Made by a program: the position numbers and the translations under genes. Under the pieces are notes generated by a model, which was not told the origin of the DNA, ran no database searches, and worked only from the letters and a program-made list of their open reading frames with translations. This document shows, piece by piece, positions 1-61,485 of a stretch of 64,000 nucleotides of DNA; positions within the stretch are counted from its first letter, which is position 1; the number at the start of each line of letters is the position of its first letter. Origin of the DNA: an uncultured Prevotellaceae bacterium (GTDB lineage: Bacteria; Bacteroidota; Bacteroidia; Bacteroidales; Bacteroidaceae); contig ONJJ01000034.1 in NCBI GenBank assembly GCA_900318115.1, positions 1 through 64,000 on the forward strand. Direction: 5' to 3'.

Positions 1-27
1 GACGGCGAATACGCCGTCCACACAACC
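1..27 (-). repeat. 27-bp hairpin element, copy 1 (in the DHH gene)
   Basis: Plus strand: GACGGCG, loop AATA, CGCCGTC, then CACACAACC. The 7-bp stem pairs perfectly. On the coding strand it reads head GGTTGTGTG, stem, TATT, stem. It is in frame and encodes GCVDGVFAV. The adjoining coding sequence upstream (about 30-150) is a Ser/Pro-rich, pyrimidine-rich tract. Confidence 0.8.
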
Positions 28-624
28 GAAGGATGATGAGGAACTGTCGGGGGAAGGGGATGAACTGGCGGGGGAGGAGGAATTGTCGGAGGGGAGGGGA
101 GGGAGGCTGGCGGGGGAGGGGGATAGTTCAAGGATGATGCGGAGGAGAACTTCGCAGGTAGAGGAGAGGTCGGGGTGCGAGATGGCAAGGTCTGCGATGC
201 CCGATTCGGGATTGAGGTGATGGTCAATCATGATGCAGCGGGTGCGCCCTTCGGGGGCACCGCCGATGGGGAGCAGCGGACGGACGACGTCGCCGAGGGT
301 CCACATACGGGAGAGCTCGCCGTGGTCACACATGATGATGAGGTCCGCGGCTTCTACGACGGGGCGGACGTCGGCTTCGTGTTTGTCGTAAATCAAGATG
401 TCTTCAGCACCTGGAACCCACTTGAGAAAATCCGGGAAAATATTAGGGGCAACGATGCGGATATCAGTTGCCGGATAGCTACGACGAAGCCAGGAAGCAA
501 GGGCTGTGGTGCTGCCGATGGCATCGCCGTCGGGACCTCGGTGGCAGGTGATGACGATGTGCTTGGCATCCTTCAGGAGCTGATGCCATAGGGCAATTTG
601 ATCAGAGGTGAGGAGCGTATTCAA
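1..624 (-). CDS. DHH-family phosphoesterase (NrnA-like), 3' part missing
   Basis: N-terminal 208 residues of a DHH phosphoesterase; the gene runs off the window. Members of the NrnA/RecJ-like group degrade short oligonucleotides or dephosphorylate pAp using metal-bound Asp/His residues. Visible motifs are HRGPDGDAIGS (motif I, about residues 27-37), MCDHGE and IDHHLNP (the DHH motif). The start is the TTG at 624. An in-frame stop (the stop codon of the upstream peptidase gene, 637-639) excludes an earlier start, and there is no ATG before motif I. It follows the peptidase gene by 12 bp, so it is probably co-transcribed. From about residue 167 the protein changes to a Ser/Pro-rich tract ending in a 27-bp hairpin element (1-27). 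Normal family members have nothing like this, so it is an insertion. Assignment to NrnA rather than another DHH subfamily is inferred. Confidence 0.8.
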   Translation of the reverse strand, partial: MNTLLTSDQIALWHQLLKDAKHIVITCHRGPDGDAIGSTTALASWLRRSYPATDIRIVAPNIFPDFLKWVPGAEDILIYDKHEADVRPVVEAADLIIMCDHGELSRMWTLGDVVRPLLPIGGAPEGRTRCIMIDHHLNPESGIADLAISHPDLSSTCEVLLRIILELSPSPASLPPLPSDNSSSPASSSPSPDSSSSSFGCVDGVFAV

Positions 625-636
625 TGTTCTGGCTTT

Positions 637-2991
637 TTATCTGGTTTTGACGTCGGCCCAGGCAGGCGGGTCAACGCCGAGAAGGTTCTTGACGAAGAAG
701 TCATAGCGCTTGTGCTCGCCATAGGATTCGCCCATGGTGTGGTGGGCGCCCGGGATGACGACGAGTTCGAAGGGCTTGTTGGCCTTGATGAGCGCGTTGG
801 CGACTTGCATGGTGCTGGCGGGATCGACATTGTCATCCAACTCGCCGACGACGAGCATCAGAGGACGCTCGAGGCGGTAGGCGTTGTCGACGTTGGAGCA
901 TTCCGAGTAAGTGGAGTCGATGGGGTAGGACATCCATTGTTCGTTCCACCATATTTTGTCCATACGATTGTCGTGGCAACCGCAAGCGCTGTAGGCGGCC
1001 TTGTAGAAGTCGCCGTGGAAGAGGACGGCGGCTGTGCTCTCCTGGCCACCGGCAGAGCAACCATAGATACCCACACGGTCGGCGTCCATATAAGGATACT
1101 TCTGGGCAGCAGCCTTAATCCAGGCAATGCGGTCGGGGAAGCCGGCATCCTTCAGGTTCTTGTAGCACACTTCCTCGAACTTCTTGCCGCGGTTGCTGGT
1201 GCCCATGGCATCGAGCTGGACAACGATAAATCCGAGTTCAGCCAGCGAGGTGGTGTTCCAGTTGTAAGGTTGGAAGGACTTGGGAGTATAACTGTCGCCC
1301 GGGCCGGAATAGATATATTCGATGACGGGGTATTTCTTCGTGGGGTCGAAGTTTGTAGGGCGCTGGATGATACCCCACATCGGGGTGACGCCATCGCGGC
1401 CTGGGGCCACGAAGATTTCGGGGGCAACCCAGCCTGCGGCCTTCAGGTCGGAGATGTCTGAGGTGGCGAGGGTCTGGGCGGCGAAAGACTTTCCGCTGAG
1501 GGAACGGACCACGGTGGTGGGAGGGGTGTCCTGGGTGGAGTAGGTGTCGATGAGAGCCGAGAAGTCTTCGTTGAAGCGGGCGTTGTGGTTGGCGGGCTCG
1601 GGGGTGAGATCAACGAGGCCTGTGCCATCGAGGTTGATGCGATAGTAATGAATGTGATAGGGGTCCTCGCCGGGGTTGCGGCCATTGGCGGTGAAGTAGA
1701 GGAGGCCGCGCTCCTCGTCCACGCGGAGGACGCGACGGACGCAGAAATCGCCGCTGGTGAGCTGGCGGGAGGGACACTCGGAGGACGAGGCGGCGAATAC
1801 GCCGCCCACCCAACCAGAGGTTCTGGAGGGGGAGGAAGCGCTGGATTTTGAGGCAGAGGAAGCGTTCAATTTCGAGGCAGAGGAGGTGCTGGATTTTGAG
1901 GCAGAGGAGGCGCGGGTGCGGCCTTTCTTGCCTTGGGCGGGGGAGGTGGTGTCGAAGAGATAGAGGTGGGGGAAGCCGTCGCGCTCCGAGAGCCAGAGGA
2001 TGAGGCTGTCGCCGTGGAGGTTCTGGCGGAAGTTGTTGGAGTAGCGGACATATTTCTCCTCGCGCTCCTCGATGAGGGTGCGGACGTTGCCTCCGACGGT
2101 CATCTCATAGACACGATAGAGGTGGTGGCCGCGCTGGTTGTATTCGAAGCGGATGGCGCGGCTGTCGGTGCACCATTCAGGGCGGGAGAGGTCATACTGG
2201 TTGGCGATGAGCTCCGGGGCGGGAGTGACGGCACGTCCGGTGGCTACCTCAAAGATGTAAGGAGTCTTCTGGGCGAGTTCGTCGCCGGGCTTGGAATATT
2301 CCTGCTTGTGGAGGATGGGCTGGAGCTGGTCGGCGGGGGAGGACTCGACGTAATAAACGTAGCGTTTCTCGATGGGACGGATGCGCTGGACAGCCACATA
2401 GCGGCTGTCGGGACTCCAGTAGATATAGCTGCTAAAGTAGTGGCTGATGGTGCCTTCGGTGCTGAGGGCGCGAGCCTCGGAGCCGTCGGGCCGGGCGACA
2501 TAGACGTTGTCGTTGCGGATGAAGGCTACGAGGGTGGAGTCGGGCGAGGGGATGGGGTCGGCATTGCGCTCGTCGTCGGTTTCCATCCAGTGCCGTTCCT
2601 GACGGCGCTTGCTGGGATTGGCGACAAAGCGGGCGCGCTGCTGATCGCCGCCGCGACGATTACGTCGCGCACCCAACCATCCCTGAGAATCTGAAGTGGC
2701 TTCGATGGGACGGGCGGAGGTGGTGTCGGCCAAGGTGATGGAGCCGTCGGCGTTGACTTGGCCGAAGTGCCAGAGGCTGTGACCGTTGTCGCTGACGCGG
2801 TACTGGAAGCGGCCGTCGGAGAGCCAACGGACATCATCGACGTGGTTCTTGACCAGGTTGTAGTTGAACGTGCGCTGGAGGGAGTAGGCACGGTTGTAGT
2901 CTTCGAGCGTGCCTTGGGCACTGAGATGGAGGGGAAAAAGGGATAGTTGCGATAGAATCGCAGCGGAAAGGACGGAACGGAGGGTGCTCAT
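637..2991 (-). CDS. DPP-IV-like prolyl dipeptidyl peptidase (S9 family)
   Basis: Secreted serine peptidase of 784 residues. It has a signal peptide ending near residue 25 (LSAQ), a DPPIV_N beta-propeller region, and a C-terminal alpha/beta-hydrolase domain. The catalytic serine is S646 in YGCSAGG. The aspartate is D719 in GELDDNVD, and the histidine is H750 or H751 in PGAHHTMG. Such enzymes release dipeptides after proline in the periplasm or on the surface. The protein is longer than usual because of two insertions. One is a hairpin element at residues 105-113, next to the family-typical NPSKRRQERHWM stretch. The other is a Ser/Ala/Lys-rich repeat tract plus a second hairpin element at about residues 355-408. 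Neither breaks the frame, and both lie in the propeller, away from the catalytic motifs. The gene follows a repeat-filled 159-bp gap. Confidence 0.9.
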   Translation of the reverse strand: MSTLRSVLSAAILSQLSLFPLHLSAQGTLEDYNRAYSLQRTFNYNLVKNHVDDVRWLSDGRFQYRVSDNGHSLWHFGQVNADGSITLADTTSARPIEATSDSQGWLGARRNRRGGDQQRARFVANPSKRRQERHWMETDDERNADPIPSPDSTLVAFIRNDNVYVARPDGSEARALSTEGTISHYFSSYIYWSPDSRYVAVQRIRPIEKRYVYYVESSPADQLQPILHKQEYSKPGDELAQKTPYIFEVATGRAVTPAPELIANQYDLSRPEWCTDSRAIRFEYNQRGHHLYRVYEMTVGGNVRTLIEEREEKYVRYSNNFRQNLHGDSLILWLSERDGFPHLYLFDTTSPAQGKKGRTRASSASKSSTSSASKLNASSASKSSASSPSRTSGWVGGVFAASSSECPSRQLTSGDFCVRRVLRVDEERGLLYFTANGRNPGEDPYHIHYYRINLDGTGLVDLTPEPANHNARFNEDFSALIDTYSTQDTPPTTVVRSLSGKSFAAQTLATSDISDLKAAGWVAPEIFVAPGRDGVTPMWGIIQRPTNFDPTKKYPVIEYIYSGPGDSYTPKSFQPYNWNTTSLAELGFIVVQLDAMGTSNRGKKFEEVCYKNLKDAGFPDRIAWIKAAAQKYPYMDADRVGIYGCSAGGQESTAAVLFHGDFYKAAYSACGCHDNRMDKIWWNEQWMSYPIDSTYSECSNVDNAYRLERPLMLVVGELDDNVDPASTMQVANALIKANKPFELVVIPGAHHTMGESYGEHKRYDFFVKNLLGVDPPAWADVKTR
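1789..1815 (-). repeat. 27-bp hairpin element, copy 2 (in the DPP-IV gene)
   Basis: Plus strand: GGCGGCG, AATA, CGCCGCC, then CACCCAACC. The 7-bp stem is perfect. It encodes GWVGGVFAA. The coding sequence just upstream of it (1841-1912) is a 24-bp tandem repeat, about three copies, encoding SASK-type repeats. Confidence 0.85.
1841..1912 (-). repeat. 24-bp coding tandem repeat, about three copies
   Basis: On the plus strand the unit is close to CTGGATTTTGAGGCAGAGG plus five bases, repeated three times with few changes. It encodes the Ser/Ala/Lys-rich insertion of the peptidase. The unit length is a multiple of three, so copy number can change without a frameshift. Confidence 0.8.
2652..2678 (-). 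repeat. 27-bp hairpin element, copy 3 (second in the DPP-IV gene)
   Basis: Plus strand: CGCGACG, ATTA, CGTCGCG, then CACCCAACC. The stem is perfect and the loop is ATTA (TAAT on the coding strand). It is read in another frame than copy 2, giving WLGARRNRR within residues 105-113. This is the only copy without a low-complexity tract beside it. Confidence 0.75.
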
Positions 2992-3040
2992 TTTTCGGAG
3001 GTGTGGAATTATTTATGGAGGAGGACGGAAGTTGCGGCGT

Positions 3041-3140
3041 TGCTGCCTTGGTTTGGCAGGTTAGGCACCGCAGCCTTGGTTTGGCAGGTTTTGTGCCGAG
3101 CCTTGTTTTGGCAGGTTAGGTGCCGCAGCCTTGGTTTAAT
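3041..3140. repeat. 28-bp tandem repeat, about 3.5 copies, intergenic
   Basis: Between the PD40 gene and the peptidase gene the plus strand repeats GCAGCCTTGGTTTGGCAGG plus TTAGGCACC with small changes and one 27-bp copy. Each unit contains the short inverted pair AGGC/GCCT. No gene or terminator is evident in this gap (2992-3150). Confidence 0.75.
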
Positions 3141-3150
3141 AGGCGAATCG

Positions 3151-4845
3151 CTACTGCCTAAGTTTGACTGGTATTGCATCTTGCTTGACGACCTTCGCAA
3201 ACTCTTGAGGAGTGGTGGTGACAGGGCCCGAGAGGAACTCGGGGATGTTGTAGCTGCGAAGGAACTGCCGGTGGTACAGGGGGTTGTCCTGCGGCAGTTC
3301 GAAGGGCTTGTTGAAGTGGCCCTTGCCGTCGAAGTGGGCGATGAAGGGGCGGGTGAAGTTGCCATCGACGCGCCTGCTGGAGAAGACGACCCAACACTGG
3401 TTGCTGGACCAGCAATGCCAACTCTCGACTTCGGGGGAGTTGATTTCTGAGATGGCATAGATGCTCTCGGGCATCGGGATGAGGCGCCCCTCGGCTTCGC
3501 GGATGCTGTCGGCACGGAGGGCGAGTTCCACATCCGAGACATTTTCCTGCTGGGCAGCGGTGTGGGAGTGTTGGATGACATGGCTGACGGCGGGTTCAGG
3601 CTCGGGCACCATCTTGGTGAGGTCCATCATGTAGAGGTCTGCATCGTTGTGCCAGATATGGAAGACTCCGAAGCGCCCCTGGGTGAACATCAGCCAGCGG
3701 CCGTCGGGCGAGATACGAGGCAGGGTGACGCTGCGGTTGCGGAGGGCGGCATCGTAGATGAGTTCCCGCGGGCCGAAGGTGCGTGTCTGCTCATCGAAGG
3801 GTATGCGATAGAGGTTGTACTGCATCTGGGTGTAGTACTTGATGAGCTCGAATTCGGGGTTCGCCTCACCGAGGTGGTCCCAGTGGCCGCTGACGTAGTA
3901 GATATATTGGCCGTCGGGGCTCCAGAAGGGGAAGCAGTCGAAGTCGGTGGTGTCTCGGGTGATAGGCAGCACCTCGTTGCGCTCGATGTCGTAGAAGATG
4001 AGGTTGGACTTGGTGTCCTGCACCTCAATCTTCTGGATGTCGCGTGTGTGGAAGCTCTGGCCCGTGTTGTTTGTGGAATAGACGATCCAGGGCTTGGTCG
4101 GGTGCCAGGTGGGATATACGCCGGCGGAGAGGGTGGAGTCCGTCTTGAGGTTCACCTTCTTGAAGTCGCCGTCGTAGGCGATGACGGTTCCTCCGAGGTA
4201 CTGACGCACGTGGAATTGGATGCGAGCGGGGTTGTACCACTGGGCGTGGTGGCAGTTGATGCACTGGCCGTTCTTCTCGTCGCTGTTGATCATGTTGCCG
4301 TAGATGAGGCTCTCGTCGAAGTTCTCGAGGCAGCGCTGGTTGAGTGTCAGGTCCTCATAGGTGACGTAGGAGGGCGAGATGAGGCGGTAGCTGATGTAAG
4401 GATCGATGCTGTCCTTGGAGACGGTGATGTCGAAAGGCTTCTGGCGATGCCAGGTGTCGCCCTGCTTCTGGAATACCTCAACAGCGATGCGGCAGTCTGC
4501 GGCGAGGGCTGCGCTCTTCATCTCGTTCCACTTCTTCAGTCCGGGACGGACGTCTTCGCCACCGATGTCCCACGTCTCGGCACCTGCTGTGAAGCGGGTG
4601 ACGAAGTCGGTGTAGGTGCTGTCGTGGTCGATGTGGAAGTGCAGCGGGGCGATGTTCAGGGGCACGGTGACTCCCACGTAGTCGGGGTAAATGGAAGGAA
4701 GGGTGCCTTTCTCGACAAACTCCGAGGGCACCTTGGCCGAACCGCCGAAGATAGCCTTGCCTGTGGCGGCACAGAGGACAATAAGAAAGATGACGAATGC
4801 CACTACGGCCCATAGGGACCAGCGGCGTTTCTTGTTGGTAGCCAT
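3151..4845 (-). CDS. Membrane-anchored PD40 propeller protein with one CXXCH motif
   Basis: 564 residues. A basic start is followed by one hydrophobic segment (about 9-30), which is either an uncleaved anchor or a signal peptide. The rest is extracytoplasmic. Several WD40-like (PD40) blades are visible: YPTWHPTKPWIVYSTN, CFPFWSPDGQYIYYVSG and PRISPDGRWLMFTQG. A single CINCHH motif near residue 195 would bind a c-type haem if matured. The PD40 blades recall TolB, but there is no TolB N-terminal domain and the gene is not near tol/pal, so I do not call it TolB. It lies 4 bp after the DUF6057 gene in an apparent operon with lacZ. Function unknown; a secreted binding or redox role is only a guess. 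Confidence 0.75.
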   Translation of the reverse strand: MATNKKRRWSLWAVVAFVIFLIVLCAATGKAIFGGSAKVPSEFVEKGTLPSIYPDYVGVTVPLNIAPLHFHIDHDSTYTDFVTRFTAGAETWDIGGEDVRPGLKKWNEMKSAALAADCRIAVEVFQKQGDTWHRQKPFDITVSKDSIDPYISYRLISPSYVTYEDLTLNQRCLENFDESLIYGNMINSDEKNGQCINCHHAQWYNPARIQFHVRQYLGGTVIAYDGDFKKVNLKTDSTLSAGVYPTWHPTKPWIVYSTNNTGQSFHTRDIQKIEVQDTKSNLIFYDIERNEVLPITRDTTDFDCFPFWSPDGQYIYYVSGHWDHLGEANPEFELIKYYTQMQYNLYRIPFDEQTRTFGPRELIYDAALRNRSVTLPRISPDGRWLMFTQGRFGVFHIWHNDADLYMMDLTKMVPEPEPAVSHVIQHSHTAAQQENVSDVELALRADSIREAEGRLIPMPESIYAISEINSPEVESWHCWSSNQCWVVFSSRRVDGNFTRPFIAHFDGKGHFNKPFELPQDNPLYHRQFLRSYNIPEFLSGPVTTTPQEFAKVVKQDAIPVKLRQ

Positions 4846-4849
4846 TGCT

Positions 4850-6874
4850 TTAGTTGGTCTTTTGGTTCCTAACCAGGAAATAGAAGTAATAGAAGGTGCT
4901 GCCGAACTGGGGATAGAAGGCGATGGCTTTCTGTTCCTCGCTCATCGGGCCGCATTGTTTGTTGAACTCCATGAACCGGTCGTAGGAGTTGCGCACCTCG
5001 GGGTCGAAAGGCATTCGGGAGATGTTGACTTTGTCCTCCAGATGACCGTAGAGATAAGCTGCTTCCTGATAGTGGCGCGGCATGTGGATATTGGGGTGCA
5101 TGGTTGCATACCGCATGAAGCGCGGCCAGAAGAGGTCGATATCCTTCATCTGCATGGCGCTGATGAGTGTCATTTCCTGGAAGAGTGGGTCGTCGCCATT
5201 GCCGTGGGCAAAGGTCTGCATGAGATACATCTCCACGAGTGTGTTGTCACCGTCGAGGCGGTTGGGGTAGCTCATGAGATGCATGATAGGCTCAAACTCC
5301 TTGAGGTCGCGTTCGCCCAAGAGCGGCTTTCCGGCCTTGACGGAAGCCTCGAGCTTGCGGAGGTCGAAGGCGTCGGGTGTCTGGATGAGTGCCTCGTAGT
5401 GCTCGGCCCATTGGCGGTGGAAGAGGGTCTTCTTCAGCAGGTCAAGGTACTTTCGTGCCACGATCCACTCGCGGTTGAGGAGGCTGTTGCGTGCCATGAG
5501 CTTGAAGGTCTCGACCTTCCATCCGAACTCCACGCCGTCTTCCATGCACCAGCGGTAGCAGAAGTTCTCCTTGCCGTAGTGGAAATAGACGAGTTTGCCG
5601 CCGATCTGTGCCATGTGTACCCGCCAGGGGGCGTTCTGCGGTGTGGCTCCTTCGGGGTAGAAGAACATCTCGTCGCCGGCACGTCCAAGGCGGAAGAGGG
5701 CGAGGTTCTTGAACATCACGATCTGGCGAGTGGGCTTGACGTCGCTGGCGCCGTCGCGGGCGATGGTGAGCACGCGTTCCCAATCAAGGTCTTCGATGGC
5801 ATGGTACATCGCCAGCTCCTTCTGGAAATTGGCATCGTGGTACCAGGATTTGCTGACTCCGACGATGCCCAGGAAAACGAGGACGAGGGCGATGGCGCTG
5901 CGGAACCAGAGCTTCAGCTTGCGGGCGAAGGCAAAACCCTCGCAAGCGCTCACCGCAACGAGGATGGCGAAGGCGAGGATGATGGCGTAGTAAGGCAGGC
6001 GGTACTCCGTGAAGATGTCCTGACTGAAACGCAGCGAGGGGAGTCCGGCCACATAGACGTAGGTGCGCAGCGTCATCTCGAAGAAGCGCTGGTAGTACAC
6101 CTGCGGAACGGCGGCAATGAGGAAGAGAGCGAAAACAGACTCTCCTACCGCCCTGCCTACAGCGGAGGACGTGGAGACAGTGGCTGTTTGCTGGCCTTTG
6201 TTCCCGGAAGTTGACTGTTCACTCCCTGACAGGGACGGCGAGGGGATTGTCCACATCATTCCCAACAATCCTGTGGCTCCCAGTGCCCAGGCACCGAACA
6301 GCGGATAGCCCACGATGCAGACGAGGGCCATCCAACCCAGGCGGCACCAGACTCGGAGCTTGGCGGGAAGGTGGTCGTCGAGCAGGCGCTGGACGACAAG
6401 GGTGAGGAGGGCAAAGAGGACGCCCACCGTGGGGACGAGCAGATGACCCTGCAGCTTCTGGTAATAGACCCAGTAGCCCGTTTGCACGAAGCAGGCCATC
6501 AGGGCCAGGGGGAGCAGCACCGTCAGCAATACCCACGGACCGCGCAGACGATAGACCCAGGTGGCGAGCAGGCAGATGAGGAGCCAGAGCGCACACAGGA
6601 TGGCGGTGCCCAGCCAGGGATAGTAGAAGAACTGGGTCAGGAAGGTTCCCAGCCACGAAGCTCCGCCGGCTGGGTATTGCATCAGGGTCTTCCAATACAG
6701 CCCTGTGGGCAGCCATAGGTTCAGCTCCTGAGCGCGCCAGAGCAGTTCATTTTCTTCGCTCACCAGCTTGAAGCCAAAGACGGCGAGGAGGGCAAGGATA
6801 GGAAGAAACCACCCCCACCTTCCTGCGGACAGGGAGGCGAGGGAGTATTTACCGGCAACTTGTTGCTTTTTCAT
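4850..6874 (-). CDS. DUF6057-type polytopic membrane protein
   Basis: 674 residues. The N-terminal 380 or so residues hold around ten hydrophobic segments (for example GWFLPILALLAVFGF, WVLLTVLLPLALMACF, AIALVLVFLGIVGV). The C-terminal half is soluble, rich in aromatic residues and helix-like (AMYHAIEDLDWERVLTIARD and following), resembling TPR-like repeats. I recognise the layout as the DUF6057 group of Bacteroidales; no activity is known. A Ser/Thr/Gly-rich stretch lies at about residues 212-235, between two membrane segments, in a variable loop. The gene starts 6 bp after lacZ and ends 4 bp before the PD40 gene, so the three are very likely one transcript. Confidence 0.7.
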   Translation of the reverse strand: MKKQQVAGKYSLASLSAGRWGWFLPILALLAVFGFKLVSEENELLWRAQELNLWLPTGLYWKTLMQYPAGGASWLGTFLTQFFYYPWLGTAILCALWLLICLLATWVYRLRGPWVLLTVLLPLALMACFVQTGYWVYYQKLQGHLLVPTVGVLFALLTLVVQRLLDDHLPAKLRVWCRLGWMALVCIVGYPLFGAWALGATGLLGMMWTIPSPSLSGSEQSTSGNKGQQTATVSTSSAVGRAVGESVFALFLIAAVPQVYYQRFFEMTLRTYVYVAGLPSLRFSQDIFTEYRLPYYAIILAFAILVAVSACEGFAFARKLKLWFRSAIALVLVFLGIVGVSKSWYHDANFQKELAMYHAIEDLDWERVLTIARDGASDVKPTRQIVMFKNLALFRLGRAGDEMFFYPEGATPQNAPWRVHMAQIGGKLVYFHYGKENFCYRWCMEDGVEFGWKVETFKLMARNSLLNREWIVARKYLDLLKKTLFHRQWAEHYEALIQTPDAFDLRKLEASVKAGKPLLGERDLKEFEPIMHLMSYPNRLDGDNTLVEMYLMQTFAHGNGDDPLFQEMTLISAMQMKDIDLFWPRFMRYATMHPNIHMPRHYQEAAYLYGHLEDKVNISRMPFDPEVRNSYDRFMEFNKQCGPMSEEQKAIAFYPQFGSTFYYFYFLVRNQKTN

Positions 6875-6880
6875 ACAAAG

Positions 6881-10093
<3,213 letters not shown>

Positions 10094-36447: not shown

Positions 36448-38330
36448 TTACTTCTTGCGTTTCTTGCGTCGGCGTAGTTTTGCGGCGATGTCCCAGTGGA
36501 TTTGTGCTTCTTCGTGGCGTCCTTCGCGATCGAGTGCATCGCCGAGCCTCTGCTGTGCTGCTTCGAAGTCCGGATAGAGTGCGATGGCTTTCTCGTAGTT
36601 GCGGAGCGCGGCAGCGTTGTTCTGGAAGTCGGTGATGCAGTCGTTGCCCATGAGGTAGTATTCTTCTGCGAACTGGCGTAGGGTTTTGCTGCGTTTCTTC
36701 AGCTGTTTGCGCAGTGCTTCGTTCTCAGCTTCCAAGGTGCTGATTGCCGTGAGCTTTCGCCGGATGAAACGTCGGGCAATGGGGGATTCGATGTCGTAGC
36801 GTGCGTGGATGGCCGTGAAGAAATGCTGCAGGAAATCGTCCCAGCGACGCTCGTCATAGGCGCGCACGGTCTCGGCGTACTCGATGTCGGCCTTGGCACC
36901 TTGCATGGCTCGGTCCAGTGCTTGAGGATTGTTGAAATGGGTTGCAAAGTTGACAATCTCGGGTCGCACGAAAACGTCAGAGCGGCTGACGGGACGTTTG
37001 AGGGTCATGCCCTCGAGGGAGGTGCAACGACTGAGTGCCACGTAGGCTTGACCGCCTGCGAAGGTGCCTGTGCCGAAGTCGATGGTGACACGCTGGAAGG
37101 TGAGGCCTTGGCTTTTATGTATCGTGATGGCCCAGGCGAGGCGGATGGGGAACTGGGTGAAAGTGCCGAGTTCCTCTTCCTCGATTTTCTTTTCGCGCTC
37201 GTTGTAGGTGTAGCGGATATTGGACCACATGGCTTCCTGAAGGCGATGATGGTGCCGAGGGTTCCGTTGACCCATTGCTTCTCTTGGTCGTTCTTGACGA
37301 AGATAATCTGGGCACCGAGTTTGATTTCGAGATCGAGGAGGGTGGGGAGGGAACTGGAGGGGAAGTCGCCACGGATGCGACCGTGGAGGGTGACGGAGGA
37401 ACCGTCGAGGCGAGCGAGCTCGTTGGAGTTGATGAAATCGACGTCGTCGCGGCGGGTGCAGAGGGTGATGCCGAGGTGAGTGGGGAGGGGGGAGTCGGCG
37501 CTAATAAGCGCCGCACCCGACCCTAAAGGTTGTAGGGAGGTGGTGAGGGAATCGAGGGAGGGGGAGGAGGAATGTGAGGTGGGGGGAGTGGTGCTGGGGA
37601 CGGGGGGAGGGGAGGTGATGGAACTTGAGGGGAGGGCGCGAGAGTTGAGGAGGGAGAGGTCGGCAGGGGAGAAATGGTTGGTGCGGATGCGGTCGAGAAC
37701 GGCGATGAACTGAGGATCCTGCTGGCGGTAAACCTTGGTGAGCTCGATGCTTACGAGCTCCATCTGGCGGAAGACATGAGCCGAGAAGAAATAAGGAGAG
37801 GGATAGAAGCGGGAGAGGATGTCGCGTTCGTCGGCTTTCACAACAGGCTCCAGCTGATAGACGTCGCCGATGAGCAGCAGTTGTTTGCCGCCGAAGGGCT
37901 GACGGAAATTGTGGGTGTAAGTGCGCAGGATGCGGTCGATGAAGTCGATGATGTCGGCACGTACCATTGAAATCTCATCGATGATGATGAGCTCCAGGCT
38001 TTGTAGGAGCTTGATGTGATCCTTGCTGTATTTCAGGAACTCACGTATGCGCCGACCTGCGTAGCGGGAGTCGTCAGGTGCCAGGGGGTGGAAGGGAAGT
38101 TTGAAGAAACTGTGTAGGGTGACGCCGCCGGCGTTGATGGCAGCGATGCCGGTGGGAGCGAGCACGACACATTTCTTTCGGGTATTCTCCTTGACATAGC
38201 GCAGGAAGGTGCTCTTGCCCGTGCCGGCTTTACCGGTGAGAAAGAGGGAATGGTGAGTGTGGCGGATGAGGTTCAGTGCCGCCTGGAACTCAGGAGTGCT
38301 GGTGTCAATGGAAGGGGTGGTGGCGCTCAT
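36448..38330 (-). pseudogene. Pif1-like superfamily 1 helicase with C-terminal TPR, one-base frameshift
   Basis: The N-terminal frame (from the ATG at 38330) has Walker A GKAGTGKST (33-41), LAPTGIAAINAGG, Walker B DEISMVRAD and GDVYQLEPV. It is sound to [10 protein letters not shown], near 37235. The helicase then continues in the -1 frame ([44 protein letters not shown]) down to 36448, ending in a TPR-like region and a Lys/Arg-rich tail. One base is missing near 37230-37240. This is a broken gene, or a sequencing error; I see no slippery heptamer. Residues 230-290 are a Ser/Pro/Thr-rich insertion holding hairpin copy 4. Pif1-type helicases unwind DNA 5'-3' and act on G-quadruplexes. It lies 22 bp after the PBP1A gene. 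Confidence 0.8.
37496..37522 (-). repeat. 27-bp hairpin element, copy 4 (in the helicase gene)
   Basis: Plus strand: CGGCGCT, AATA, AGCGCCG, then CACCCGACC. Perfect 7-bp stem. It is read in the same frame as copy 3, giving GSGAALISA. The coding sequence upstream of it (37531-37640) is the Ser/Pro-rich, pyrimidine-rich insertion. Confidence 0.78.
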
Positions 38331-38352
38331 TTGCGGAAAGGGACACAAGTTG

Positions 38353-52143: not shown

Positions 52144-52149
52144 ATAATA

Positions 52150-52324
52150 ATCTTAAAAAATGTTTTTAAAGATTGATGAATAGATTTATGTCGATAGACG
52201 TCTTACTCTCATCCGATTTGAAAGTTTGTATTAGTCGTCAATCAGCACTTCAATCTTCGTTAATCTCATGTCGTATGTTTGAATCATTTGTTTCTGTATG
52301 ATAGTATTATTGGAGTGGCATCAT
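52150..52324 (-). repeat. GxxExxY-associated repeat, unit 1
   Basis: A 175-bp copy of a repeat also present at 52743-52950 and 52951-53106. It shares GATTGATGAATAGATTTATG, GACGTCTTACTCTCA and CGTCAATCAGCACTTCAATC. Its right end contains the last codons of the nuclease-fold gene, which lies between this copy and unit 2. Confidence 0.8.
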
Positions 52325-52738: not shown

Positions 52739-52742
52739 GATC

Positions 52743-52950
52743 TAATGTCCGATGAATAGTCTTAAAAACTTATTTTCGATAGATTGATGATTATATTGAT
52801 GTCGATTGACGTCTTACTCTCAGCTGCAGTGAGAGTCTGTATAAGCCGTCAATCTCCGTCAATCAGCACTTCAATCTTCATTAATCTCATGTTATATGTT
52901 TTAATCTTTTTGTTTCTGTATGATGATATTATTGGAGTTGCATCATTATG
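52743..52950 (-). repeat. GxxExxY-associated repeat, unit 2
   Basis: 208 bp directly upstream of the nuclease-fold gene. Its first bases (TAATGTCCGATGAATAGTC) match those of unit 3. Its last bases (TATTATTGGAGTTGCATCAT) match the 3' end of the gene. Inside are GATTGACG and CGTCAATC in inverted order, able to pair. Confidence 0.85.
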
Positions 52951-53106
52951 TAATGTCCGATGAATAGTCTTAAAAATTTATTTTCGATGGATTGATGAAT
53001 AGATTTATGTCGATTGACGTCTTACTCTCAGTTGCTGTGAACGTTTGTATTAGTCGTCAATCTCCGTCAATCAGCACTTCAATCTTCATTAATATGATTT
53101 TATGAA
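52951..53106 (-). repeat. GxxExxY-associated repeat, unit 3
   Basis: About 156 bp abutting unit 2 with no gene between. It ends in CTTCAATCTTCATTAAT. Beyond it (53107-53192) is AT-rich sequence without further repeats or a gene. With unit 2 this makes the 454-bp gene-free gap up to 53192. Confidence 0.85.
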
Positions 53107-53192
53107 TATTTTAAAGATCACTCTCATAACTCTAATATTTTACGTTGTCTCAGTTCATTGTTATGTCGTTTTTGGATGATTATTCCGTTTGA

Positions 53193-54917: not shown

Positions 54918-54980
54918 GTGTCAGACGTTAAATGTGCATATGAAATGTTTATTTTTCACTTTCCACTTTCCACTTTTCAC

Positions 54981-56096: not shown

Positions 56097-56175
56097 GAAA
56101 TAGGTTTGGTGTAATACGTATCGTTGTTGAGGCGTCCGGCGTCTCGTTGAGCCGGGCGCGGAGTTGAAAAAGAAA

Positions 56176-56207
56176 GAGGCGGACTTCCTTGTTTGGAAGC
56201 CCGCCTC
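56176..56207 (-). terminator. Intrinsic terminator of the tRNA gene
   Basis: Minus strand GAGGCGGGCTTCC - AAACAA - GGAAGTCCGCCTC, one mismatch-like G-U pair, followed by TTTCTTTTT. It begins 13 bp after the tRNA 3' end and ends 80 bp before prfA. Confidence 0.9.
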
Positions 56208-56216
56208 GCATGTGGG

Positions 56217-56294
56217 TGGTAGGAACGATCGGGCTCGAACCGATGACCTCTTCAATGTGACTGAAGCGCTCTGAACCAACTGAGCTACGCTCCT
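56217..56294 (-). tRNA. tRNA-Val (CAC)
   Basis: Minus strand, 75 nt plus encoded CCA. Acceptor stem AGGAGCG/CGTTCCT (one G-U), D arm GCTCAGTTGGTTCAGAGC, anticodon arm CTTCA-GTCACAT-TGAAG, T arm ending GGTTCGAGCC. With U33 before it, the anticodon is CAC (Val). Reading GTC (Asp) would put A at position 33 and break the stem. Own promoter and terminator. Confidence 0.85.
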
Positions 56295-56313
56295 ATCCTT
56301 GGGTTTGCGGGCG

Positions 56314-56344
56314 CAAAGTTACAACATTCTGTTGAATCCACCAA
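56314..56344 (-). promoter_or_regulatory. Promoter of the tRNA gene
   Basis: Minus strand TTG (56342-56344), 20 bases, TAACTTTG (56314-56321): a textbook Bacteroidetes -33/-7 pair, 19 bp before the mature tRNA 5' end. Confidence 0.82.
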
Positions 56345-56427
56345 CGTTTTTTTCATCTTTTCGCCGAATCAGCCGTTGTTTTTTGTCTTTTTTTGCCTCT
56401 TCGGACGAAAAGACGCACTTTGGATCG

Positions 56428-56637
56428 CTATTCTTCACCTAAGATGCGGTGCTGCCAATGGTATTTGAGGGTGATGAGACTGTAGCAAATATCCACCCAA
56501 CCGAGGATGGCGAGAAAGCTGAAGATTTTGCGGCCGATGCTGGTGTCTGCCCAATTGTCGATGAGGCCATAGACCACGGCAACCAGGCAGCATAAACCAA
56601 CGATGGCACAACAGATTTGGAAGACAGACTTTCTCAT
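56428..56637 (-). CDS. Small two-helix membrane protein
   Basis: 69 residues with two hydrophobic segments (about 8-26 and 37-55) and a short charged C-terminus (HWQHRILGEE). It starts 21 bp after purM, so probably co-transcribed. I do not recognise the family. Its GGTTGGGTG stretch (56499) is not followed by a hairpin and is not an element copy. Confidence 0.7.
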   Translation of the reverse strand: MRKSVFQICCAIVGLCCLVAVVYGLIDNWADTSIGRKIFSFLAILGWVDICYSLITLKYHWQHRILGEE

Positions 56638-56658
56638 GGCTGTAGCTGCCTCTTTTTC

Positions 56659-57834
56659 TTAGTAGTTGAACTCGCCGAACTCGCTGCGGATGGTGAGGCT
56701 GCGCGGTCCTTCTTCGATGTGGCCCACGACCTGAGCGTCGATGTTGAAGCTCTTGCTGATGTCGATGACCTGCTGGGCATCCTCGGGACTGACATAGACC
56801 TCCAGGCGGTGGCCGCAGTTGAAGACCTTGTACATCTCGCTCCAGTCAGCACCGCTCTCCTCGGCGATGATGCGGAAGAGGGGCGGCACGGGGAACATGT
56901 TGTCCTTGACGACGCGGCAGTTCTCACCCACGAAGTGCAGCACCTTTGTCTGGGCGCCGCCCGTGCAGTGTACCATGCCGTGGATGCGGGGGCGCAGCTG
57001 ATCGAGCAGCACCTTGACGACGGGAGCGTAGGTGCGGGTGGGGGAGAGGACGAGGCGGCCGACGGTGAGAGGGGTGTCGGCGGGGAAACCGCCGACCGCA
57101 CTATCAAGGCGGTAATGGCCGCTGTACACCAGTTCCTCGGGTACGGCGTGGTCGTAGGTCTCGGGATATTTCTCAGCGAGGTACTTGCTGAAGACATCGT
57201 GGCGGGCGGAGGTGAGTCCGTTACTGCCCATGCCACCGTTGTATTCCTTCTCGTAGGTGGCCTGACCGTAGCTGGCCAGCCCCACGATGACGTCGCCCGG
57301 GCGGATGTTCGCGTTGTCGATGACGTCGGCGCGCTTCATGCGGCAGGTGACGGTGGAATCGACGATGATGGTGCGGACGAGGTCGCCCACGTCGGCCGTC
57401 TCGCCGCCGGTGGCATAGATGCCGATGCCCATCTCGCGCAGCTCGCTGAGGAGTTCGTCGGTGCCGTTGATGATGGCGCTGATGACCTCGCCGGGAACGA
57501 GCATCTTGTTGCGTCCGATGGTGGAGCTGACGAGGATGTTATCCACGGCACCCACGCAGAGCAGGTCGTCGGTGTTCATGATAAGGGCATCCTGTGCGAT
57601 ACCTTTCCATACGCTGAGGTCGCCTGTCTCGCGCCAATAGGCGTAAGCGAGGCTCGACTTGGTGCCGGCGCCGTCGGCGTGCATGATGTTGCAGTACTCG
57701 GGGTCGCCGCCGAGGATGTCGGGGATGATCTTGCAGAAAGCCTGCGGGAAGATGCCTTTGTCGATGTTCTTGATGGCGGCGTGGACGTCCTCCTTGGCGG
57801 CAGAGACGCCCCGTGCCATGTAGCGGTTATTCAT
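56659..57834 (-). CDS. purM: Phosphoribosylformylglycinamidine cyclo-ligase (AIR synthetase)
   Basis: 391 residues, the longer Bacteroidales form. It closes the imidazole ring in purine synthesis (FGAM to AIR, with ATP). HADGAGTKSSLAY, QDALIMNTDDLLCVGA, VPGEVISAIINGTDELL and ATGGETADVGD (glycine-rich phosphate loop), and HCTGGAQTKVLHFV are typical. Adjacent to a lipoprotein gene (22 bp) upstream. Confidence 0.96.
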   Translation of the reverse strand: MNNRYMARGVSAAKEDVHAAIKNIDKGIFPQAFCKIIPDILGGDPEYCNIMHADGAGTKSSLAYAYWRETGDLSVWKGIAQDALIMNTDDLLCVGAVDNILVSSTIGRNKMLVPGEVISAIINGTDELLSELREMGIGIYATGGETADVGDLVRTIIVDSTVTCRMKRADVIDNANIRPGDVIVGLASYGQATYEKEYNGGMGSNGLTSARHDVFSKYLAEKYPETYDHAVPEELVYSGHYRLDSAVGGFPADTPLTVGRLVLSPTRTYAPVVKVLLDQLRPRIHGMVHCTGGAQTKVLHFVGENCRVVKDNMFPVPPLFRIIAEESGADWSEMYKVFNCGHRLEVYVSPEDAQQVIDISKSFNIDAQVVGHIEEGPRSLTIRSEFGEFNY

Positions 57835-57856
57835 TATTCGCTGTTTTTAAGATGAT

Positions 57857-58768
57857 TTAGAACCATTTTGTGAAGCCCCATTCTTTGATGGTGCTCCAAT
57901 CAGGATTGCTGGTGCGTCTCAGGGTGAAAGGCTCGAAGACATTCTCCTTGATGAACAGGTTACCCTTCATCTCGTTGTCCGTGAACTCAACGTCAAAGAA
58001 GTAGTAGTCTGTCTCGTAGGGATCCTTGCTGTCGGCGCGATAGATTCTCAAGATCTTGTCTTCACTCCACCGGTTCCACGACCGGATGCTGTCAGCGAGC
58101 AGGGTGCCCCAGGGTGTCTCGCCCTCATAGACTTCTTTGATGAACGCTTTGTCCATTCCAATCATGGCTGTGTTGTAAACCGGATCGACGTCGAAGGTGA
58201 TGACGATCTGCGAGGGCTCATAGGACTGTCCCTGATATTCACGCTTGATGTTGATTTTGCCTTCGTAGGTGACGCGGTGCCATGTGGGCAGGAGTTCGTT
58301 GTAGCCCCAATACATGACGTCTTTCACATCAGGCTCGGCGCCGCGTGTGAAACTGAAGGTCGTCTCGGAGTTGAAGAGGTGTCCGCTGAAGGAGTTCCCC
58401 TTCAGTTCGTATTCGATGGTGCTGAAGGTGTCGCCGTTCTCGCTGTACTTCACCTGGATTCCCACTTCGCCGCTCTTTCTGGTCCAAGTCTCCCATTTTA
58501 AGTGGAAATAAGCCACCGGAAGCTCTGCGTTGTCATAGTATTCCACGGCCACACCTTCTCCGACGGTGAGTCCCTTGCGTTCGGGGTAAAGGCAGAGAAT
58601 CGTTTTTGTGGTTTTGAGGGTCTCTCCTTTGTAGGTTCTTGGAAATAGCGCTGCAGAAGTTTCCCATGTTCCGGCTATATTCAGTGCCACTTCTTCTTCC
58701 TTCTCACATGAGGTAAAGGTGCACAGAGCCGCCAGGGCTGCAATGGCGCACAAAAGAATCTTTTTCAC
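57857..58768 (-). CDS. Lipoprotein of unknown function
   Basis: 303 residues. Lipoprotein signal CTFTSCEKEE, lipidated Cys at about 20. The rest is beta-rich with no motif I can name. Two regions look alike in pattern (GTWETSAALFPRTYKGETL and HRVTYEGKINIKREY), perhaps two lipocalin-like units. It lies between lemA (26 bp) and purM (22 bp). Confidence 0.7.
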   Translation of the reverse strand: MKKILLCAIAALAALCTFTSCEKEEEVALNIAGTWETSAALFPRTYKGETLKTTKTILCLYPERKGLTVGEGVAVEYYDNAELPVAYFHLKWETWTRKSGEVGIQVKYSENGDTFSTIEYELKGNSFSGHLFNSETTFSFTRGAEPDVKDVMYWGYNELLPTWHRVTYEGKINIKREYQGQSYEPSQIVITFDVDPVYNTAMIGMDKAFIKEVYEGETPWGTLLADSIRSWNRWSEDKILRIYRADSKDPYETDYYFFDVEFTDNEMKGNLFIKENVFEPFTLRRTSNPDWSTIKEWGFTKWF

Positions 58769-58794
58769 TGGATGATCGTTGTTTGGGTGAAATA

Positions 58795-59382
58795 TCAGAA
58801 CTGAACCTCGGGTGCTTTCTCGGCACCAGCTTCGGCCTTGAAATTGCCCTTGGTGCTGAATCCAAACATGTTAGCAAAGAGGTTTGCGGGGAAGCTGCGG
58901 ACAGAGACGTTGTATTTCTGTGCGGCTTCGTTGAAGAGACGGCGCGACTCGGCAATGCGGTTCTCCGTGCCTTCGAGCTGAGCCTGCAGCTCGCTGAACT
59001 GTTGGTTGGCTTTCAGGTCGGGGTAGTTCTCCGTGATGGCGAGCAGACGGCCTAATGCCTGGCTCACTTCGCCCTGTGCGGCCTGGTATTCTGCCAGCTT
59101 CTCGGGAGTGAGGTTCGTGGGATCTACGGTGACCTGCGTGGCCTTCGTGCGAGCCTCGACAACGGCTTGCAGGGTCTCGCTCTCATGGGCGGCATAGCCC
59201 TTGACGGTGTTCACGAGGTTGGGGATGAGGTCGGCACGACGCTGGTACTGAGCCTCTACGTCAGCCCATGCGCGGGATACGTTTTCGTCCTGAGAGACGA
59301 GGCCGTTGTAGGTGTTGCATCCGTAGAAGCCACAGAGGACCACGACGGCAGCGATGATGAGATAGATGGATGATTTTTTCAT
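58795..59382 (-). CDS. lemA: LemA family protein
   Basis: 195 residues. One N-terminal membrane anchor (IYLIIAAVVVLCGFYG) then a helical bundle. LVSQDENVSRAWADVEAQYQRRADLIPNLVNTVKGYA is the LemA hallmark, followed by ENYPDLKANQQFSELQAQLEGTENRI and a YNVSVRSFPANLFANMFGF end. It is usually paired with a TPM-domain gene, as here. The biochemical role is not settled. Confidence 0.95.
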   Translation of the reverse strand: MKKSSIYLIIAAVVVLCGFYGCNTYNGLVSQDENVSRAWADVEAQYQRRADLIPNLVNTVKGYAAHESETLQAVVEARTKATQVTVDPTNLTPEKLAEYQAAQGEVSQALGRLLAITENYPDLKANQQFSELQAQLEGTENRIAESRRLFNEAAQKYNVSVRSFPANLFANMFGFSTKGNFKAEAGAEKAPEVQF

Positions 59383-59399
59383 TGTAGTATGTTTTTAGG

Positions 59400-59505
59400 G
59401 GTTTGGATTTTAGTGGGGTGTGATGGGGGATGATGGGGTTAATGGGGGGATGGGGTTATTGGGTCTAATGGGGTTAATGGGCTTGATGGTGGATTTTTTG
59501 GGGGC
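59400..59505 (+). repeat. G-run-rich simple repeat between the TPM and lemA genes
   Basis: The plus strand (template strand for the genes) repeats GATGGGGTTAATGGGG-like words. Eight runs of three to six G are separated by 2-6 bases, a strong G-quadruplex pattern. The mRNA would carry the C-rich complement. Confidence 0.75.
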
Positions 59506-60432
59506 TCAGAACCGACCTCCGGCTCCTCCTCCTCCGAAGCTGCCTCCTCCGAAGCTGCCTCCGAAGGAGCCGCCGCCTCCTCGGCCGAAGAAACTGCCGC
59601 CGAGAGCACCGCCGGCTGCTGCGCTGCCGCTGCCGCTGTTGAGGTCTTCGTCCCAGTGCAGCTCCTTCACGAAGAAGCAATGGGAGCATTTGTAGGTGTC
59701 GTGGTGGCTGCGGAGGCCGAGGCGACGGTTGGTGGTGGTGTAGCCCGAGACCTTTTTCATCTTATGCTGCTTGCAGCTGGGGCAGTAGGATTTCTTGTAG
59801 TTGTCGTACCAGACGCCGAAGCCGATGAGGCCGAGGCCGAGGAGCATGCAGAGGATGAAGGCGATGAGTGCGGCTGTGTCGTCCTCGTTGTCGAAGTCGG
59901 CCAAGCCCACGAGGGAGTCGTCGCCATCGACGTACTTGGTGATGGCACGGACGGTGGCCAGCATCGCCTCATCCCAGTCGCCTTCGCGCAGGGCGGGCAG
60001 CATCTGGTTGTTTTCTATGCGCTTGCAGATGGCATCGGGCAGGGTGCCTTCGAGTCCGCGGCCTGTGAGGATGTAGTACACGCGGTCGCCGGTGGAAAGG
60101 AGGATGATGAGTCCGCTGTTTTGGTCCTTGCGTCCGATGCCGTACTTCCTTCCGAGCTCCATGCAGAAGTCATACGCCTCGCCTCCCTGGATGCGCTCGA
60201 CCACCGCCAGGACGGTCTGTACGCCGTGGGCGGTTTCCATCTGTCCTAACCAGAGGTTGAGCGAGTCCACAGTCTCCTGCGAGAGGATGCCGTCGGGGTT
60301 GGAGACGTACTGTGTCTTATCCTGGAGGTAGGGGATGGGCAGGTTGTCGGGGGTGTAGGTGGCAGCGAGGAGGGGTGTTACCGCGCAGAGCTGCGCGGCA
60401 CACAGGAGGAAAAGGATGCAGAGTTTCTTCAT
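59506..60432 (-). CDS. TPM-domain membrane protein
   Basis: 308 residues. Signal peptide to about residue 24 (PLLAA). The TPM domain (VSNPDGILSQETVDSLNLWLG, LGRKYGIGRKDQNSGLIILLSTGDRVYYILTGRGLEG) spans about 40-180. A membrane segment (ALIAFILCMLLGLGLIGFGVWY) is followed by a cysteine-paired element (CPSCKQHKM, YKCSHC), possibly zinc-binding. The C-terminus is glycine/serine-rich (FGGSFGGGSFGGG), common in TPM proteins. Usual partner of lemA; the function is uncertain (phosphatase activity has been reported for the domain). Confidence 0.85.
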   Translation of the reverse strand: MKKLCILFLLCAAQLCAVTPLLAATYTPDNLPIPYLQDKTQYVSNPDGILSQETVDSLNLWLGQMETAHGVQTVLAVVERIQGGEAYDFCMELGRKYGIGRKDQNSGLIILLSTGDRVYYILTGRGLEGTLPDAICKRIENNQMLPALREGDWDEAMLATVRAITKYVDGDDSLVGLADFDNEDDTAALIAFILCMLLGLGLIGFGVWYDNYKKSYCPSCKQHKMKKVSGYTTTNRRLGLRSHHDTYKCSHCFFVKELHWDEDLNSGSGSAAAGGALGGSFFGRGGGGSFGGSFGGGSFGGGGAGGRF

Positions 60433-60504
60433 AGGCGTTTCTTTTGTCCTTGTATTTTCCTTTTATGCTAAACCTGGTCGTGGTGTGACCGTAGTTCACA
60501 TTAT

Positions 60505-61485
60505 TTAATCTTTTCCATTCCAGAATTCCCAGCTGGCGACGGCCTGGCGGTGCAGCATCTCGAGGCCGCTCTTGACGGTGGCGCCGAAGCGGCGGCCTTG
60601 CTGCATGAAGAGGGTGACTTCGGGGTTGTAAACGAGGTCGAAGAGCAGATGGCGCGGCGAGAGGGCAGCGTAGGGGAGGGGAGGGGAGGCGTCCACCTTG
60701 GGATACATGCCGAGAGGGGTGCAGTTGACGATGACGGTGTAGTCGGCAAGCAGGGAGGGGGTGACGTCAGAGTAGGTGAGGGGAGGGAGACTCGGCGAAT
60801 ACGCCGAGCACCCAACCGAAGTATCTTGGGGGGCAGAGGGCCGGCCGAGGGGGGAAGCTTCGGGGGAGGAGGGTTGCCCGAGGGGGGAAGATTGGGCAGA
60901 GGGCAGGCCGAGGGGGGAAGCTTCGGAGGAGGAGAGCAGGCCGAGGGGGAAAGTTTGGGAGGAGGTTTCGGGGGAGGAAGATTGGGGGGAGGGAGATTGG
61001 GGGGAGGAGGGTTGGTTGGGGGTGCGGGTGCGGCTGACGTAGCGCCATTCGATGCCGAGTTTTTCGAGGCCGTGGCAGATGGCTTTCGAGGCGCCGCCGG
61101 TGCCGAGGACGAGGGCTCGCGTGTGGTGCGGCTTCAGGAGGGGACGGATGCTGTCCATGAAGCCGATGATGTCGGAGTTGAATCCCTTCAGATGGGGTCG
61201 CCCGCCTTGGCGTGTGATGCGGATGACATTGACGGCGCCTATGGCGCGCGCTTCGTCCGAGAGTTCGTCGAGCAGTGGAATGACTGCCTGCTTGTGGGGC
61301 AAGGTGACGTTGAGGCCCCGCAAACCCGGATGCTCTGCTATCACTTGCTGCAGGAGGTCGGCCGATGGCAGTTCGAAGTTGAGGTAGGTGGCATCGATTC
61401 CCTCGCGCGCGAATTTTTCTAAGAAGAACGCGCGCGAGAAAGAGTGCCCGAGTGGGTAGCCCAAAAGACCGTATTCACAGGTCAT
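60505..61485 (-). CDS. aroE: Shikimate dehydrogenase with an internal low-complexity insertion
   Basis: 326 residues, about 75 more than usual. The extra residues (about 154-232) are Ser/Pro/Leu-rich with a roughly 10-residue repeat (SPLGLPSAQS, SPLGQPSSPEA, SPLGRPSAPQ) and the hairpin element encoding GCSAYSP. The rest is normal: GHSFSRAFFLEKF, NVTLPHKQAVIPLLDE (with catalytic Lys), GFNSDIIGFMDS, nucleotide loop LGTGGASKAICHGL, VSRTR and, after the insertion, VNCTPLGMYP. The insertion lies in the NADP-binding domain just after the VSRT strand, at the loop that contacts the 2'-phosphate, which often varies in length. It should still be active, but is untested. It follows menG. Confidence 0.93.
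   Translation of the reverse strand: MTCEYGLLGYPLGHSFSRAFFLEKFAREGIDATYLNFELPSADLLQQVIAEHPGLRGLNVTLPHKQAVIPLLDELSDEARAIGAVNVIRITRQGGRPHLKGFNSDIIGFMDSIRPLLKPHHTRALVLGTGGASKAICHGLEKLGIEWRYVSRTRTPNQPSSPQSPSPQSSSPETSSQTFPLGLLSSSEASPLGLPSAQSSPLGQPSSPEASPLGRPSAPQDTSVGCSAYSPSLPPLTYSDVTPSLLADYTVIVNCTPLGMYPKVDASPPLPYAALSPRHLLFDLVYNPEVTLFMQQGRRFGATVKSGLEMLHRQAVASWEFWNGKD
60791..60817 (-). repeat. 27-bp hairpin element, copy 5 (in aroE)
   Basis: Plus strand: CTCGGCG, AATA, CGCCGAG, then CACCCAACC. Perfect stem. It is read in the third frame (SVGCSAYSPS). A purine-rich tract with direct repeats lies immediately upstream in the coding sense (60818-61020). Confidence 0.85.
60818..61020 (-). repeat. Purine-rich tandem repeat tract inside aroE
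   Basis: The plus strand is almost wholly G and A, with repeats of GGCCGAGGGGGGAAGCTTCGG and GAGGGTTGCCCGAGGGGGGA-like words. It encodes the Ser/Pro-rich repeats of the AroE insertion. No stop codon occurs in the coding frame. Confidence 0.8.

Follow-up and report, generated by a model that had tools for sequence, protein, structure and literature searches.

We analysed a stretch of 64,000 nucleotides (hereafter the window; C51:1-64000, contig ONJJ01000034.1) from the genome of an uncultured, gut-type Prevotellaceae bacterium (G000), in which five 27-nt hairpins lie in frame within protein-coding genes. We propose that these hairpins are repetitive extragenic palindromic (REP) elements, non-autonomous sequences that are recognised and dispersed by a REP-associated tyrosine transposase (RAYT), a single-strand transposase of the HuH/Y1 type encoded in the same genome, and we put the probability of this reading at about 85%. 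The hairpins fit the REP/RAYT system because a RAYT gene that carries the hairpins itself was found. An earlier description of the window, made from its sequence alone (the sequence-only reading), had recognised an in-frame family that resembles REP/RAYT elements but had held that it matches neither these nor the Rickettsia palindromic elements; the family stands and a RAYT is present, but the claim of no match has to be given up for REP/RAYT.

Each of the five 27-mers, all on the minus strand (Table 1), pairs without mismatch over a 7-bp stem closed by a loop of four bases, and hairpins satisfying the same criteria arose three times in total over 100 dinucleotide shuffles of the window. When the copies are folded as single-stranded DNA, their z-scores range from -3.4 to -6.3, and none of 200 shuffles equals the value of any copy. 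The five hairpins of one design reported by the sequence-only reading are thus real, as is their location inside the coding sequence of four genes, where they use three reading phases and introduce no stop codon in any. The nine-base head that had been described as conserved is exact in three of the five (GGTTGGGTG), but deviates in the copies at 1-27 and 37496-37522. These same two copies lie outside the genes called by a simple gene caller, because the contig end cuts one frame and the helicase frame overlaps another; Pfam puts both in frame. The far side of copy 1-27 is not visible since contig C51 stops exactly where the copy does. A search of the window against Rfam gave no family that matches the hairpins.

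The window copies belong to a family that extends through the genome (3.33 Mb). An exact-pattern search of this genome returned 23 matches against 0 for a reversed control, and a pattern with up to two mismatches returned 70 against 32; because weak pattern matches are largely noise, we used in their place a covariance model, built on 22 seed copies and applied to the own genome and to genomes of the same genus, as the sequence-only reading had suggested. The model gave 44 matches at E ≤ 1 in the own genome and at least 41 at E ≤ 3e-4, a lower bound with rough E-values, as 150 of the 1750 first-look candidates were scored, and it found copies in 12 of 101 same-genus genomes. Such hairpins are therefore far more frequent than chance both in the window and in the genome as a whole. 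In the seed alignment, 99.3% of the cells pair, six of the seven pairs show double-sided changes, pairing is lost when the partner is slid, and the covariation score is 0.871 against 0.246 in shuffles. Within the window the two arms do always vary in concert, but the AroE and DPP-IV copies of a sister species show rare single-arm changes. Identical 27-mers occur at six places of the own genome, and another at five places, in unrelated genes as well as at intergenic sites, and in some cases (C25 and C34:59420) the likeness extends into the flanks. Two candidates were discarded: one of the 41 (C68:8276) is a chance look-alike formed by native Tex sequence, in which the S1 domain aligns straight through, leaving 40 copies, and a supposed sister-species copy (L128:1502) is a hairpin formed by chance where the sequence resembles a signal peptide.

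The RAYT-type (Y1) transposase that the sequence-only reading had proposed to look for is present on contig C42 (L096 2155-3558). Three copies lie at this gene, at L096 2157(+), 2705(-) and 2937(+), one just before the probable start and an inverted pair inside the frame with the heads facing each other, so that hairpins stand beside and in the RAYT gene in the inverted orientation that defines a REPtron. In REPINs the mobile unit is two closely spaced, inverted REPs; here inverted pairs are seen in RAYT genes, and the remaining own-genome copies are mostly single or on the same strand. The predicted C42-type protein is a RAYT by its HuH and Tyr (tyrosine) motifs and by its similarity to RAYT models; its motifs read DHFH, PLWEKG and YVRDNP, and they are accompanied by a long C-terminal extension. 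A contig scan with six such RAYTs confirmed at least 425 relatives, of which 80 were kept. Among the matches listed, the internal inverted pair is found in 10 of the 12 closest RAYT loci (L211-L219 and L222, the '+' copy of L219 being weak at E=0.015), with the '+' copy only in L220 and only a weak fragment in L221. These 12 loci, again among the matches listed, are labelled as coming from metagenome-assembled genomes of Prevotella, Prevotellaceae, Bacteroidaceae or Bacteroidales, five of them from rumen or abomasum, and five are evidently the RAYT loci of G043, G067, G075, G076 and G098. The RAYT stands between the same two neighbour genes in L211, L212, L215, L217, L218 and L221; from their sequences we take these neighbours to be lipoprotein-like and pepP-like. 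In an alignment of 31 RAYTs, hand-chosen from the 80 kept loci, H107, H109, Y223, N227 and P228 are invariant; the NCBIfam model REP_Tyr_transpos (NF047646) matches all 31, and Pfam Y1_Tnp matches 19 at E ≤ 1. The C-terminal extension (GAVLISPFIS...) is common to the RAYTs and makes up about the last 150 residues of that in L096, and a PDB profile search with the RAYT returned nothing up to E=10; by sequence, the extension showed no solved relative.

A sister RAYT lineage (L223-L226) has hairpins on both flanks of the gene, inverted and with the heads outward, which have a like apex (loop TATT; TGTT in L225) and a different head. In the L223 and L224 genomes, a 20-base hairpin pattern, which misses copies with other stems, matched exactly only at the RAYT flanks, with one more match at three mismatches. 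A plausible history would start with a flanking pair, continue with a new-headed pair within the RAYT and end in amplification.

Most copies lie within genes, where they occupy variable loops of the encoded proteins (AroE, DPP-IV, IlvD, MiaB and FtsZ among them). Reading frames hold 33 of the 40 own-genome copies, 31 of them assigned by codon score (the Tex look-alike having been dropped) and the two FtsZ copies by Pfam and translation; seven of the 33 are near the start of their frame and may be leader sequence, which leaves 26 copies clearly inside genes, seven near frame starts and seven outside. For each of the 29 same-sense copies that lie outside the RAYT, Pfam gives a match in the same frame, the one for C19:2175 falling under its cut-off, and the 30 same-sense copies divide into 6, 16 and 8 among phases 0, 1 and 2. 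Hosts that are bracketed on both sides of the element, by domains or by orthologue alignment, include phosphoglycerate mutase, IlvD, a TonB-dependent receptor, an RmlD-type reductase, MiaB, an AMP-binding enzyme, DPP-IV, AroE, FtsZ and the RAYT. The C-terminal linker of FtsZ (L030, C38) holds two clear copies and one degenerate copy, which are local duplicates antisense to the gene, and L216 has three near-identical copies in tandem.

Comparison with orthologues shows the element as a patchy insert. Among 30 aligned aroE loci, it is present in two only, those of the own genome and of G043, a close relative whose DPP-IV is 90% identical; in the other loci the loop is short, or holds a different low-complexity insert that lacks the element. 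Among 24 DPP-IV loci, the site at aa 104 is occupied only in G000 and G043 and that at aa 392 in G000, G043 and G067, and the DPP-IV of G010 and G055 carries copies at other positions. In uvrA, where 28 of 30 loci were readable, the element occurs in G043 only. Relatives thus do not align without gaps through the elements of aroE and DPP-IV, the orthologues being mostly without the insert, and from this patchy distribution in the three genes it follows that low-complexity loops exist without the element. We took 17 regions from G043, of which 12 matched G000 loci and five did not; of those five, uvrA was the one examined. At the twelve sites common to both genomes, the element differs at 16 of 324 positions and the flanks at 1694 of 8449, a count that favours copies that are still recognisable; one pair (L126/L060) is misaligned, and leaving it out gives 13 of 297 for the elements. 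Inserts of this kind are a feature of the genus in their own right: Ser/Pro/Ala-rich low-complexity loops occur in its housekeeping proteins with or without a hairpin (about 85 residues in AroE), in the window at about 60820-61030 in aroE and 1816-1920 in DPP-IV, and in relatives as well.

The common orientation of the elements relative to transcription, which the sequence-only reading had noted and left unexplained, holds for the five window copies but is a tendency genome-wide, where 30 of the 33 in-frame copies are same-sense and three opposite; among the 26 internal copies the numbers are 23 and three, the opposite ones being the two FtsZ copies and one copy of the RAYT. Reverse-orientation stop codons are not the cause, as none was found when typical copies were inspected by hand, in agreement with that reading. 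Strand composition accounts for part of the pattern. On the head strand, the 60 nt that precede the head contain on average 73.6% pyrimidine versus a background of 50.9% (sd 7.7%), the figure including all 41 copies with the Tex look-alike and the background being the minus strand of the window; the base directly before the head is C at 27 of 39 distinct sites, and that directly after the stem is A at 22 of 38. Counts of pyrimidine tracts, taken over the window plus 20 regions selected for the copies they contain, are 93 for the coding strand, 21 for the template strand and 83 outside called genes. In FtsZ, the coding strand of the linker is purine-rich and the element is reversed. Orientation, then, tends to follow the pyrimidine-rich strand, which is what targeting by strand composition would give. 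G043 shows a similar picture, with 79% pyrimidine for the 16 in-frame copies of the 18 scanned, in a set that includes a misassigned FtsZ copy and a chance hairpin; the automatic orientation score is imperfect, since it scored this FtsZ copy as same-sense where translation shows it to be antisense. Contig skew gave no separation between replication-strand targeting and composition. According to published work, the cut site can be set by the tetranucleotide in front of the REP stem, and in one REPtron a change from GTAG to GTGG shifted cutting to CC (PMC8266576, in the sections available to us); a G-rich head that chooses C/T sites would extend this result by analogy.

Across the genus, the C42-type RAYT (at least 59% identity) occurs in six of the 101 genomes, all of them among the 12 that bear elements (Fisher p 7e-7, uncorrected for kinship). 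Several observations weigh against our proposal. Half of the element-bearing genomes (6/12) are without a C42-type RAYT, including G018 with 41 copies, G055 with 12 and G010 with 10, the other three having one or two weak copies each, and these element-rich genomes are the main gap in the case. The internal pair shared among the closest RAYT loci does not amount to ten independent events, because the loci are related. Among the RAYTs, L217 scores 41.6 with REP_Tyr_transpos against a curated cut-off of 80 bits, and a Pfam Y1_Tnp match is absent for L217 and L096. We saw no transposition event, and the exact insertion boundaries and target duplication that we sought in aroE, DPP-IV and uvrA, the orthologue comparison advised by the sequence-only reading, were not obtained, as the loops vary too much and offered no clean empty-site pair. 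Finally, the same-sense copies of G018 have 62% pyrimidine before the head, and 13 of its 14 in-frame copies score as same-sense (19 of the 41 were scanned); composition is therefore not the whole cause of orientation, as flanks that are little enriched in pyrimidine go together with nearly uniform orientation.

As for the genomes without the C42-type RAYT, the two RAYT neighbours adjoin in G010 and G094 with no RAYT between them, an arrangement that in G010 would fit a loss of the RAYT but is no proof of it. G018 and G055, whose assemblies are incomplete, are also without a match to the upstream RAYT neighbour, and both hold relatives of a RAYT of the C40 type. The elements could be REPs that are mobilised by another RAYT paralogue, such as that on C40 (L033), which we consider unlikely. 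This paralogue was our first choice of partner, with an element about 640 bp from it, and its relatives in G018 (60% identity) and G055 (42-53%) are found in two genomes that are rich in elements and without the C42 type. However, the RAYT loci examined from G018 and G055 (L103, L105) contain no element, the element near the C40 RAYT stands upstream of tsaE, G094 is free of elements and has a RAYT of the C40 type, and G010 has 10 elements and only distant RAYTs. It was demoted to a rival because the C42 RAYT carries the hairpins itself.

A different possibility, improbable in our view, is that no unit was ever inserted, and that slippage or tandem duplication of low-complexity tracts produced the copies, with quasi-palindrome template switching keeping the arms matched. 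Template switching would match hairpin arms as well, many copies are found in loops of low complexity, which expand even where the element is missing, and the local duplicates in FtsZ (two or three copies), the tandem copies in L216 and the longer flanks shared at C25 and C34:59420 are of the kind that such a process creates. Yet slippage cannot move a sequence between genes, and the explanation is weakened accordingly by the identical 27-mers in unrelated genes and intergenic sites and by the occurrence of the design in and beside RAYT genes. That the hairpin has a function in RNA, for instance in mRNA stability or translation, and is retained because of it is very improbable, for the excess of same-sense copies and the lower divergence of the element than of its flanks between G000 and G043 (with its bias towards recognisable copies) are set against unrelated hosts, sites that are patchy among relatives, antisense copies in FtsZ and the RAYT, and the absence of an Rfam match in the window.

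If the hairpins are REP elements dispersed by the C42-type RAYT, the enzyme would bind the hairpin as single-stranded DNA, and the G-rich head beside the stem would act as a guide that favours C/T-rich single-stranded sites. Copies would then tend to land in the pyrimidine-rich strand, which in the own genome is usually the coding strand, and selection would leave those inserts that lie in flexible loops. As the element is 27 nt long and mostly free of stops in all phases, an insert would add nine residues without breaking the frame. Both the mobility of the hairpins and their guide-directed targeting are what we infer from sequences. No benefit to the host was found, and the element is most likely a passenger, slow and tolerated, of a RAYT that is inherited vertically; RAYTs have been described as vertically inherited single-copy genes (PMC8049555, in the portion available). 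More tentatively, and with considerable doubt, we suggest that a REP family has here moved from intergenic to intragenic life, in which the head guides the RAYT to the pyrimidine-rich strand of variable loops, each insert adds nine residues in frame, the RAYT gene stores its own substrate, and the system may slowly generate variation in the loops of housekeeping proteins.

To our knowledge, the Rickettsia palindromic elements have another tag and no link to a RAYT. Compared by their description in the accessible part of PMC3733652, they share with the present family that they are palindromes lying in frame in many unrelated genes. The likeness to REP/RAYT (TnpA_REP), REPtrons and REPINs comprises the short hairpin, the conserved 5' head, the many dispersed copies and the Y1/HuH RAYT that carries, or is flanked by, inverted hairpins; indeed, with 27 nt, 41 copies, a conserved head and a varying but paired stem, the element has the size and design of REPs (20-40 bp, palindromic, many copies). 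It differs in its foot, which is GGTG within GGTTGGGTG as opposed to GT[AG]G (PMC6006769) or CGTC (PMC3733652), as far as the available text of these two papers lists published feet. It differs further in the long C-terminal extension of the RAYT and in being mostly intragenic (26 of 40 copies clearly so), where REPs are expected to be mainly extragenic.

Among the closest published systems is TnpA_REP subclass 2.4 (RAYT group 4), in which in-frame REPs occur in the tnpA_REP genes between HuH and Tyr; the C42-type gene has them in the same place, and Bacteroidetes are among the hosts of the subclass (PMC6006769, in the sections at hand). The same sections give NH[IFV]H, WQ and YIxNNP where we find DHFH, WE and YVRDNP, describe the C-terminal extension as absent, and report long hairpins in place of the short 7-bp one seen here. 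Intragenic REPs are also on record for O. terrae, R. conorii and others, with uvrA among the hosts; these resemble ours in being inside genes and translated in frame, uvrA being a host in both, but the tags in that work are GTAG or CGTC and the majority of its REPs lie between genes (PMC3733652, likewise in part). REPs in frame, whether in RAYT genes or in other genes, are therefore already on record. In the open-access literature that we searched, we found no description of this hairpin family, and as far as these searches show, the family, its head, its mainly intragenic distribution, a RAYT lineage that has the long C-terminal extension, and a strand tendency to which FtsZ is the exception are new.

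REPs are extragenic by name, and the present family is mostly intragenic and in frame (FtsZ, AroE, IlvD and MiaB; UvrA in the sister species). With a probable transposase in hand, the choice of targets by a RAYT, with the head as guide, becomes a testable question, and so does the possibility that a mobile element of bacteria becomes tuned to do no harm inside genes. For annotation, the family is a warning that nine-residue inserts of this kind are probably mobile DNA and not functional motifs.

Table 1. Hairpin elements of the window and the genes that contain them.
Feature	Position	Strand	Remarks
REP-type hairpin, head GGTTGTGTG, stem GACGGCG, loop TATT	1..27	-	very end of contig, in frame of DHH-family gene
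REP-type hairpin, head GGTTGGGTG, stem GGCGGCG, loop TATT	1789..1815	-	in DPP-IV (aa 392)
REP-type hairpin, head GGTTGGGTG, stem CGCGACG, loop TAAT	2652..2678	-	in DPP-IV (aa 104)
REP-type hairpin, head GGTCGGGTG, stem CGGCGCT, loop TATT	37496..37522	-	in PIF1-type helicase; common to G043
REP-type hairpin, head GGTTGGGTG, stem CTCGGCG, loop TATT	60791..60817	-	in AroE (aa 222)
Host gene, DHH family	1..624	-	truncated by contig end
Host gene, dipeptidyl peptidase IV (DPP-IV)	637..2991	-	two elements and a low-complexity insert
Host gene, PIF1-type helicase	37005..38348	-	C-terminal part runs on in another frame
Host gene, shikimate dehydrogenase AroE	60505..61485	-	long low-complexity insert, element at its end

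The C-terminal part of the PIF1-type helicase (36448-37275 of the window) is in a different frame from the element-bearing part, and the change of frame near 37240 may be a frameshift or an assembly error. In relatives (L300-L318), the hypervariable uvrA loop that receives the element in G043 also contains in-frame peptides of another palindrome-like kind (SPLREG, LPLPREGG, SPSHEGRG, SPLKGGEGGG), and a peptide resembling them occurs outside the window in the frame L096 4001-5173. RAYT paralogues are common in the genus: the C40 RAYT has matches at E ≤ 1e-5 in 64 of the 101 genomes, and many matches in some of them. Another RAYT-like open reading frame, at L032 955-1719, adjoins a different repeat that is translated as GVCPYGGYAP, and the two may be a further REP family and the RAYT that belongs to it.

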